Below are positions 17,561 to 21,900 of a DNA stretch of 64,000 nt, in pieces. Source of the DNA: Bolinopsis microptera (Eukaryota > Ctenophora > Tentaculata > Lobata > Bolinopsidae); contig NC_087084.1 of the NCBI RefSeq assembly GCF_026151205.1, positions 6,751,538-6,815,537 on the forward strand, read 5' to 3'. The number at the start of each line of letters is the position of its first letter. Within the stretch, counting starts at the first letter, position 1. Made by a program: the position numbers and the translations under genes. Under the pieces are notes generated by a model. The model saw nothing but the letters and a program-made list of their open reading frames with translations. It was not told where the DNA came from and did no database searches.

Positions 17561-18905
17561 TTCTAGTTTAACCTCTACTCACACATTATATTCTAGTTTA
17601 ACCTCTACTCACACATTATATTCTAGTTTAACCTTTACTCACACATTATATTCTAGTTTAACCTCTACTCACACATTATATTCTAGTTTAACCTCTACTC
17701 ACACATTATATTCTAGTTTAACCTCTACTCACCCATTATATTCTAGTTTAACCTCTTCACTCACCCATTATATTCTAGTTTAATTAACCTCTACTCACAC
17801 ATTATATTCTAGTTTAACCTCTACTCACACATTATATTCTAGTTTAACCTCTTCACTCACACATTCTATTCTAGTTTAACCTCTACTCACACATTCTATT
17901 CTAGTTTAATTAACCTCTACTCACACATTATATTCTAGTTTAACCTCTACTCACACATTATATTCTAGTTTAACCTCTTCGCTCACACATTCTATTCTAG
18001 TTTAACCTCTACTCACACATTATATTCTAGTTTAACCTATACTCACACATTCTATTCTAGTTTAACCTCTACTCACACATTCTATTATAGTTTAACCTCT
18101 ACTCACACATTATATTCTAGTTTAACCTCTACTCACACATTATATTCTAGTTTAACCTCTTCGCTCACACATTCTATTCTAGTTTAACCTCTACTCACAC
18201 ATTATATTCTAGTTTAACCTATACTCACACATTCTATTCTAGTTTAACCTCTACTCACACATTCTATTATAGTTTAACCTCTACTCACACATTATATTCT
18301 AGTTTAACCTCTACTCACACATTATATTCTAGTTTAACCTTTACTCACACATTATATTCTAGTTTAACCTCTACCCACACATTATATTCTAGTTTAACCT
18401 CTACTCACACATTATATTCTAGTTTAACCTCTACTCACACATTATATTCTAGGTTAACCTCTACTCACACATTCTATTCTAGTTTAACCTCTACTCACAC
18501 ATTCTATTCTAGTTTAACCTCTACTCACACATTATATTCTAGTTTAACCTCTACTCACACATTATATTCTAGTTTAACCTCTTCACTCACACATTATATT
18601 CTAGTTTAACCTCTACTCACCCATTATATTCTAGTTTAACCTCTTCACTCACCCATTATATTCTAGTTTAATTAACCTCTACTCACACATTATATTCTAG
18701 TTTAACCTCTACTCACACATTATATTCTAGTTTAACCTCTACTCACACATTATATTCTAGTTTAACCTCTACTCACACATTCTATTCTAGTTTAACCTCT
18801 ACTCACACATTATATTCTAGTTTAACCTCTACTCACACATTATATTCTAGTTTAACCTCTACTCACACATTCTATTCTAGTTTAACCTCTACTCACACAT
18901 TCTAT
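17561..18905. repeat. 30-bp minisatellite, about 43 copies, upstream of an MCM5 exon
   Basis: Units of about 30 bp (some 34-38 bp) with CACACATTATATTCTAG followed by TTTAACCTCTACT. The array ends at the acceptor of the MCM5 exon at 18,911: the junction TTCTATTTCAG|CTTGACTCTAC resembles each unit's TTCTATTCTAG|TTTAACCTCTAC, including the first dozen exon bases. The units are therefore decayed copies of this intron-exon border. Confidence 0.95.
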
Positions 18906-18910
18906 TTCAG

Positions 18911-21900
18911 CTTGACTCTACAGTGTCGCTCGTGCAGAGACTACAAGAGTGATATCCCTATCAGGCCAGGGTTGGAGGGGTTCGCTATGCCTAGGAAGTG
19001 TTCCGCGTAAGTAAAGTAATAACGACAACTTAATTGTTGACTTAAATATCCATAGCAACTTAACGTTCCGCGTAAGTAAAGTAATAACGACAACTTAATT
19101 GTTGACTTAAATATCCATAGCAACTTAATGTTCCGCGTAAGTAAAGTAATAACGACAACTTAATTGTTGACTTAAATATCCATAGCAACTTAATGTTCCG
19201 CGTAAGTAAAGTAATAACGACAACTTAATTGTTGACTTAAATATCCATAGCAACTTAATGTTCCGCGTAAGTAAAGTAATAACGACAACTTAATTGTTGA
19301 CTTAAATATCCATAGCAACTTAATGTTCCGCGTAAGTAAAGTAATAACAACAACTTAATTGTTGACTTAAATATCCATAGCAACTTAATGTTCCGCGTAA
19401 GTAAAGTAATAACGACAACTTAATTGTTGACTTAAATATCCATAGCAACTTAATGTTCCGCGTAAGTAAAGTAATAACGACAACTTAATTGTTGACTTAA
19501 ATATCCATAGCAACTTAATGTTCCGCGTAAGTAAAGTAATAACGACAACTTAATTGTTGACTTAAATATCCATAGGCTCAACTTAATGTTCCGCGTAAGT
19601 AAAGTAATAACGACAACTTAATTGTTGACTTAAATATTCATAGCAACTTAATGTTCCGCGTAAGTAAAGTAATAACAACAACTTAATTGTTGACTTAAAT
19701 ATCCATAGCAACTTAATGTTCCGCGTAAGTAAAGTAATAACGACAACTTAATTGTTGACTTAAATATCATAGCAACTTAATGTTCCGCGTAAGTAAAGTA
19801 ATACCGACAACTTAATTGTTGACTTAAATATCCATAACCAGAATATTTATGTATACTAGCAGTAACCCGTCTAACTCTAAAGTGGTGTCAAGACTCAAGA
19901 GACTAAAATAATTAGTACCTATTTAATTCGCGTTTTTGACACCACGTGGGGTCCAAATGTTGGGCACTAAAATTCTTATTCCTTGGCCAATTTCTAATTT
20001 TTTTATGCTGATTTGAAAAGCATAAAAGCATTTGACCCAGTCAAAAAAAGTTGCAGTTGTATATCTTTTACGGTGTTTGCGGAAAGTCGCGTTAAGGTTG
20101 ATTCCGTGGTGTCAGTAAAATGGCACGGATCCATCCATATATATATATATATATGGGTTTTAATACTTTCAACACTACTATATAACAAATAATTTGAGAA
20201 TTGATGTAAATAAATGATGCAAAGAATTACGAGGTCTGACCCACATCCAGAAAGTTTTATATTTCCTCCCAGATGCGTTTTTTCTAAATTCTGTGGCCCG
20301 CTCGCTTCGCACGCAAGTTTGGGGAGGGGGCTGTCGGCGAGCAAAGCGAGTCGACGTGTCCAATTCAGCTGCGAAGCGAACAAGCTGTGGCAGGGGTCTG
20401 GGGACGGAGCCCCTTGGCGGGGGCTAGGGAGCGCAGCCCCCGGAATTTTTTTGCGAAATAGGGTGTTTTAGACGGCATTTGGCATTAAAGAAATTTGTAG
20501 GACAGCAATAAACTGGGATTGAAAAGAATCAAGTACTCACGTAAATTTGGTAACTTCACAACAGCAATCTGCATTCTCCAATCAGAATATTGAACACTGT
20601 GTTCCAAAACTGACAGGATGTTCCTCTTTGATTTTTATACAATCGAAACATTTTCTTCAAAAATTTCCTCAATTAATTTGTCTTTATTCCAAAAAAATAT
20701 TTCGAAATTTAGGAGTAACTTCTCAAAGATTTCCTCTTTTTCTCCCGTTTTTCCTCCCAAAAAAAATTTCCTCCCAGGCTGCCTGGCAAGATGGCGTGTT
20801 TCTGGATGTGGGTACGAGGATCTAGTCAAAACCTCTTTTTTATTGTGTAGAAGTTCAGCAATGAAATATACATATAATATCGTCTCGCTTTATATATAGT
20901 AAGATAATACAGTCAAATTAGTCAAAGCAACAGTGCAACAATGGAGGTGCATTCATCGGATGGTAACAGTCTTAGTGGGTCAATACGTCATAAAAGCTGA
21001 CTTGGGTACGCGTACCACCACAATTTCAGTCGGTACGCGCAAATACGGCAAAATACGCGCACCCGTACCCAGTGCAGATACGGGTACGCCAAAATTAAAA
21101 AGCAAACGAATTCACTTATCTCAGAGACAAAATGAAAGACAATAGTAAATATTAAAAATGGAATTCAACAATTACACATCCGCAAAGATAACACAGTTCA
21201 TCAAACAGTGTCATCAAAAGTAATTATAAAGTCTGTAACAAACCACAGGTCTTACACCCGTTTGTTACAAACTTTATAATTACTTTTGATGAATAACAGC
21301 TTCTCTTGGGTCTCGAAGGCTAACCTATTGCGTTTTGGACCCATTAGGTAGTCGTATGTTGAGAACAATTGCTCGACTGGACTTTGAGAATTGGGCTGTG
21401 AGTTTCTAGATTTCAATTTAAATTTGAAAAATTCAAATTCACTTTTGAGTTTTCGGGTGCGGGTGCGGGTACGCACGTACCGCTATCGGGGCCAGAACTC
21501 GGTACGCGCGTACCCGTACCGGGTGCGAATACGTATTGACCAACTAAGGTAACAGTTGACACATAAACAGACAATCAATGTCTACAAATTTGTTGAAAAT
21601 ATGAAATTTGAACAAGAAATTGACTAAAACATCACATCAAAAATAATCTCTCTAATAACTGCTCCTGAACACGTGACATTACCCGCGATATGTATCAGAC
21701 AGCAAATCACAAGATTTTGGTGGCCCCCATTGTAAAGATAGAGCGAGTGGACATGTACATGTAGTGAAATGATGTCAACGTCACGGGGTATGACGTCACG
21801 GGGTATGACGTCACGGGGTATTTATTGTTCACAACCGTTCACTTCCTAAGAACAGACTCGAACAGTTTATGTAAAGCTCTTTGATTAGGTCCTAAACTTA

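Follow-up and report, generated by a model that had tools for sequence, protein, structure and literature searches.

Probable splice-boundary minisatellites at both edges of an MCM5 exon in the ctenophore Bolinopsis microptera

Tandem arrays that copy exon-intron boundaries have been described in lancelets. The Adh3 and globin genes of these animals carry "mirages", minisatellite-like tandem copies of an exon-intron boundary (PMC3087553), and the founding case, as related in the same source, is Adh. In these mirages either the 5' or the 3' boundary is copied, AG or GT is present in many of the units, and regular splicing is reported (PMC3087553). In the lancelet PGBD5 gene, tandem repeats of 60 and 108 bp coincide with or overlap the 5' and 3' splice sites (PMC3902484, which cites Adh and troponin C as like cases). 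Internal tandem repeats are also found at exon-intron boundaries in recently duplicated human genes, where they can form novel introns (PMC2812944).

Here we describe arrays at both edges of exon 5 of the MCM5 gene in Bolinopsis microptera, within a window of 64,000 nucleotides (the whole stretch of DNA analysed). Similar to the lancelet mirages, these are tandem arrays of minisatellite size with AG or GT splice signals in their units. The two sides are affected in separate lancelet globin genes (Gb6 and Gb9), whereas in MCM5 both sides of one exon are, and the Gb6 haplotypes hold 6 and 3 units (PMC3087553), against 44 and 13 units at the ctenophore exon. The PGBD5 case differs in that its repeats are imperfect, it belongs to another phylum, and its 108-bp repeat is a triplication (PMC3902484). 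The human repeats are likewise boundary minisatellites that alter or challenge splicing, but they average 30-bp units in four copies and are the cause of variants or newly formed introns among young paralogs (PMC2812944), whereas the MCM5 arrays are much longer and leave the exon unchanged. The model of intron gain by AG/GT tandem duplication (PMC3087553) has the same starting point, a tandemly duplicated segment with a splice site, although MCM5 has gained no new intron and its reading frame is intact. Intron repeats of earthworm metallothionein were rejected as a precedent, the parts of the account available to us describing them without copied splice junctions. A literature search (ctenophore minisatellites and introns, boundary repeats), with limited coverage of ctenophores, found no splice-boundary minisatellite in a ctenophore. 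The kind of array is known, and the present case adds to it a distant phylum, the involvement of both edges of one exon and high copy numbers.

The two arrays of MCM5 exon 5

We rebuilt MCM5 from a relative's protein (P0050, 91% identity over the query) on the window extended by 100 kb at each end. The resulting model has 19 exons between window coordinates -6344 and 43802, and a clean open reading frame of 2184 nt runs intact across all of them. The first-pass annotation had placed an MCM5 exon at 18,911-19,006, and this is confirmed: its translation matches animal MCM5 in the PDB (6 distinct sequences), where it corresponds to the zinc-finger stretch, and its edges are supported by the 19-exon reading frame and by residues 165-197 of P0050. 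The preceding intron 4 measures 21,395 bp (-2484 to 18910) and the following intron 8,001 bp. The relatives P0050, P0051 and P0052, compared as proteins only, have no insert at exon 5, and together with the intact reading frame they are consistent with undisturbed normal splicing. The features at this exon are as follows (a slash marks a splice junction here and below).

18911..19006, forward strand: MCM5 exon 5 of 19, 96 nt, zinc-finger region plus split codons (PDB, P0050, reading frame)
17554..18906, forward strand: acceptor-side array, 44 units of mostly 30 bp (TRF, unit parsing, scores)
18897..18911, forward strand: real 3' splice site of exon 5, ACATTCTATTTCAG/C (exon model, PWM)
18999..19836, forward strand: donor-side array, 13 units of mostly 65 bp, copy 1 being the real donor (TRF, unit parsing)
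19007..19012, forward strand: real 5' splice site of exon 5, GTAAGT (motif and stop-codon scan)

About 43 copies of a 30-bp unit and 13 of a 65-bp unit had been reported over 17561-19838, close to the 44.3 and 12.9 copies that TRF finds between 17554 and 19836. The acceptor-side array stops 4 nt short of exon 5, and the donor-side array takes in the last 8 nt of the exon.

On the donor side, all 13 units span the exon-intron boundary with exon bases followed by a donor (GTTCCGC/GTAAGTAAAG). The exact donor that had been claimed for every unit is there, the nine-base donors being identical in 13/13, but the eight exon bases claimed with it are common to 12 units and only seven to all 13; copy 2 has C rather than T as the preceding base. 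The motif CGC/GTAAGT occurs 13 times on the forward strand of the window, which was the strand searched, every time inside this array. The donor-side array clearly copies the edge of exon 5. Several of its units carry sequence changes. By a PWM trained on 15 other sites, the real donor scores 7.66 and is on the weak side (14/15 training sites score higher), and all 12 later donors, if used, would lead to the same in-frame TAA right after exon 5.

Introner elements are dispersed sequences that carry splice sites and exist in many genomic copies. In contrast, a query of 194 bases (exon 5 plus a donor unit) matched at one place only (12/12 matches) in the assembly of 264,652,675 bases and 232 contigs, with simple repeats and very common words skipped and the donor side alone represented. 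On the strength of this donor-side search, an identity with introners, for which dispersed copies are needed, was rejected.

On the acceptor side, TAG is present in 44/44 units and is followed within 12 nt by a branch-site-like TTAAC, again in 44/44. The unit motif first put forward, TTCTATTCTAG, does exist but is the minority form (10/44), while TTATATTCTAG is found in 32/44. These units had been called decayed copies of the exon edge, and as splice sites most of them are not decayed, since the real acceptor is itself weak: it has a PWM score of 4.5 (14/15 training sites higher; second lowest when the training set is 17 sites), and 42/44 acceptors of the array equal or exceed it (PWM, 15 sites). 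With 13 identical nine-base donors on the other side, the description of an exon set among dozens of decoy acceptors and 13 equally good donors stands. As to descent, we compared the sequence after AG in the unit with the start of exon 5, anchored at AG, and obtained a similarity score of 12. Of 20000 dinucleotide shuffles, 413 do as well, and so do 25 of 3780 other post-AG sites on the forward strand of the window. The AG phase is the best among the 30 phases of the unit (12, with a runner-up at 11). The acceptor-side array therefore likely derives from the start of exon 5; the proposal that its units are copies of the exon edge is supported at moderate significance, short of proof, and the case for descent is weaker than for the donor-side array.

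The acceptor-side array comprises 13 distinct full-length unit types, and a block of six units (AIGJGK) is present twice. If used, 7 of its acceptors would preserve an open frame, 13 would stay in frame but meet a stop, and 24 would shift the frame. The 7 nearest copies are those that hold the frame open, adding 10 residues each. To judge from its TTAAC, the last unit probably still provides the branch point for the real exon 5 acceptor. A YTRAY branch-like motif lies at -45 to -8 in 11/14 MCM5 acceptors, as against 1497 of 5000 random stretches.

A nested gene with a boundary array, and tandem arrays around other junctions

Intron 4 of MCM5 hosts minus-strand genes, two of them of the SOUL family, and one SOUL-family gene nested there (Pfam PF04832) has a boundary array of its own.

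12708..13412, reverse strand: exon 2 of the SOUL heme-binding gene, real acceptor at 13412/13413 (Pfam PF04832, relative P0170)
13408..15735, reverse strand: 53-bp array, 43 extra copies of AATTTCCAG/GGTGC plus the real acceptor (TRF, units)
15813..15893, reverse strand: exon 1 of the SOUL-family gene, MLRLVAVCTLLTLVLSKAVEDVDSFAQ (tblastn of P0171, 45% identity with a gap)

The donor of exon 1 reads CAG/GTAAGA. The array occupies the greater part of the intron, with the real acceptor at its end. Its 43 units (41 of 53 bp and 2 of 52 bp) each end in CAG/GGTGC, that is, the acceptor with the first 5 exon bases, and so span the intron-exon boundary exactly. A direct repeat, GTGC, lies in the intron flank and at exon bases 2-5, and in the one-unit state its two copies are 53 bp apart. 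Because this spacing is exactly one unit, every unit carries the 3' splice site together with 5 bases of the exon, and the 4-nt repeat fits ordinary slippage. Units begin AATACTG (39/43) or AATATTG (4/43) and the flank TCTACTG, so that right after GTGC there are two unexplained mismatches between units and flank. In the relative P0170, 92% identical and known as a protein only, one reading frame continues from the distal flank through a single unit into the exon (SKRSTIKYSARIPSLSNFQGAGYEE), which suggests that its source has a one-unit junction. All 43 decoy acceptors of the SOUL gene would run into a stop at codon 5.

Intron 4 holds further sequences of note. A partial SOUL gene copy (matches at 9005-9148 and 10701-10850, region 8000-12850) is split by a stretch at about 9300-10490 that looks like a transposon by eye, the piece of it searched having no Pfam match. 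A lectin-like reading frame near 2000-2500, found by eye, has no Pfam match. In another MCM5 intron, 27323-30969 is a large inverted structure with 56-bp end repeats that look like reverse complements and with reading frames that mirror each other, perhaps a foldback-type element.

Other tandem arrays lie near splice sites in the window, and one further long array is listed with them.

35835..35906, forward strand: small array that stops 6 nt upstream of the acceptor of the MCM5 exon 35913-36058 (TRF)
36079..36157, forward strand: 15-bp array starting 20 nt past the donor of the MCM5 exon 35913-36058 (TRF)
42488..42525, forward strand: 20-bp repeat, 1.9 copies, starting 10 nt past an MCM5 donor (TRF)
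42737..42849, forward strand: 25-bp array in an MCM5 intron of 157 nt, at distances of 15 nt (donor) and 29 nt (acceptor) from the splice sites (TRF)
43036..43490, forward strand: 12-bp array starting 28 nt past an MCM5 donor (TRF)
53584..53682, forward strand: 21-bp array some 15 nt upstream of a putative GalNAc-transferase exon (about 53698-53799; by eye)
53828..53987, forward strand: 14-bp array about 28 nt past the donor of the same putative exon (by eye)
47263-47678: one of the 17 long arrays of the wider survey described below

The array at 42737-42849 occupies most of its short intron. Outside the window, an array of 76 bp x 8.5 begins 8 nt past the donor of MCM5 exon 3, and one of 30 bp x 61 (window coordinates -40689 to -38862) ends 19 nt before an exon of CCT3, a chaperonin subunit. 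These two lack copied splice signals, though they lie near junctions: GTRAG is absent from the MCM5 exon 3 array (0 occurrences), and the CCT3 array has 106 CTAAY branch-like motifs and no AG in 1828 nt. A 64-bp array at 2501-3654 was dropped as a candidate splice-boundary array, as no exon edge could be placed there. The putative GalNAc-transferase exon at about 53698-53799 thus stands between two tandem arrays (53584-53987). A PDB search with the reading frame of this exon gave no match, and the PDB matches of a reading frame upstream are GalNAc-transferases. A short ACTAATAATAACCACTA array with many branch-site-like motifs is found at 52618-52673, directly before a putative GalNAc-transferase exon. 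The window also encodes an SLC22 protein, whose best match among 49 is a Bolinopsis microptera protein at 92% identity, and, at 49278-50694, two near-identical inverted reading frames of 172 aa, one of which was searched and has no Pfam match.

To assess the position of arrays relative to splice junctions, we used circular shifts of a merged list of 46 arrays in the window, in which the edges of two SOUL introns are approximate by at least 1 base, and random placements within MCM5 introns, which took one TRF row per array and shifted or dropped 36079-36157 and 43036-43490. Among arrays of at least 400 bp in the window, 3/6 overlap or lie within 5 bp of a mapped junction, a number reached in 0 of 5000 shifts; among arrays of at least 300 bp in MCM5 introns, 3/6 are within 10 bp of an MCM5 exon edge (0 of 5000 placements). 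When arrays of every size are counted, the excess at the closest range is weaker [all 46 window arrays: 3 within 5 bp, equalled by 70 of 5000 shifts; 5 within 10 bp, 3 of 5000; 9 within 30 bp, 0 of 5000; all 36 MCM5-intron arrays: 5 within 10 bp, equalled by 20 of 5000 placements; 7 within 30 bp, 33 of 5000]. In a wider survey, which covered the window and 100 kb to either side of it (200 kb of flank, including 5000 bases of N), 17 arrays have a period of at least 20, at least 5 copies and at least 300 bp, and at least 5 of the 17 lie at an exon edge. In the region studied, long arrays touch mapped splice junctions beyond the shuffle expectation.

The occurrence of arrays on both sides of one exon is another matter. 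The first-pass annotation regarded such two-sided growth as hard to explain by chance slippage, and our results do not bear this out. With 24 arrays taken from the TRF output, 3/14 of the MCM5 exons in this window are flanked on each side by an array no more than 30 bp away, where chance pairing of edges predicts 1.4, and 1852 of 20000 shuffles reach 3, so that two-sidedness poses no extra puzzle. The neighbouring SOUL gene, with 43 extra units and its 4-nt GTGC repeat, fits slippage, and boundary minisatellites were already on record in PMC3087553, PMC3902484 and PMC2812944.

Origin and persistence of the arrays

We consider it likely that the arrays belong with the mirages as splice-boundary minisatellites, seeded by tandem duplication at junctions, then expanded, and tolerated by the host gene. 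Seeding would occur by tandem duplication between short direct repeats that flank a splice junction, a step which the SOUL array fits closely; for the MCM5 arrays no short direct repeat of the SOUL type was established. Unequal exchange or slippage would then expand and homogenise the units, as the repeated AIGJGK block in the unit order indicates. Growth would be tolerated because exon definition across the 96-nt exon 5, flanked by introns of 21.4 and 8.0 kb, may favour the innermost acceptor and donor, which are the sole pair that yields the normal MCM5 protein. Under intron definition, on the other hand, the outermost copies would be preferred and the protein would be broken. This explanation would not extend to the SOUL gene: it is read as two exons, exon 2 having no downstream donor, and exon definition by a downstream donor is therefore inapplicable there. 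The choice of acceptor in that gene must rest on something else, which counts against a single explanation for both loci.

It is less probable, though worth weighing, that these are ordinary intronic minisatellites that touch exon 5 by chance, the exon bases in their units marking no more than where the first duplication began, with no tie to splicing. This part of the genome is rich in tandem arrays, with 46 in the window and 242 in the 264 kb of the wider survey. Splice-like motifs are common in array units: among the 15 arrays scored for donors, 4/14 others carry on one strand a donor-like motif of at least 7.2, against 7.0 for the 65-bp unit. A splice motif within a unit is thus not special by itself, and we dropped it as a sign. 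Two-sidedness without significance and the modest closest-range excess over arrays of every size also agree with chance contact. What makes us think it unlikely is that long arrays are nearer to junctions than under both null models and that units at two loci carry exact exon bases.

A role for the arrays would require that they are kept as redundant branch points and acceptors that aid a weak 3' splice site, or as a source of MCM5 variants with blocks of 10 residues. The weakness of the real acceptor, the 7 nearest copies that keep the frame open and the CCT3 array, which retains its CTAAY motifs without AG, would be in line with this. We nevertheless give it very little probability, because P0050, P0051 and P0052 show no insert (as proteins, whether or not their genes carry the arrays), 37/44 acceptor decoys and 12/12 later donors break the protein, and the two sequences that were folded gave no notable RNA structure (z of 0.92 and -0.32). 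It is even harder to believe that the assembler created the copy number or one whole array, as the units are non-identical with block structure, several donor-side units carry changes, and similar arrays exist at other junctions. If the arrays are indeed mirage-like minisatellites, they are probably neutral passengers and not regulators.

More tentatively, splice junctions may be hot spots for minisatellite seeding in ctenophore genomes, independently of lancelets, and hundreds of genes may carry decoys and rely on exon definition. If this is true, a risk of duplication linked to splicing or transcription at the edges of exons would represent a mutational process of general reach. The arrays reported here extend a phenomenon of lancelets, and in milder form of human duplicated genes, to a phylum that is placed basally among animals. 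They also raise the question of whether tandem duplication is drawn to splice junctions. Exon 5 of this essential gene, which has one right acceptor among 45 that are near-equal and one right donor among 13 that are identical, offers a natural test of splice-site pairing, in which mRNA sequencing would separate exon definition from intron definition.
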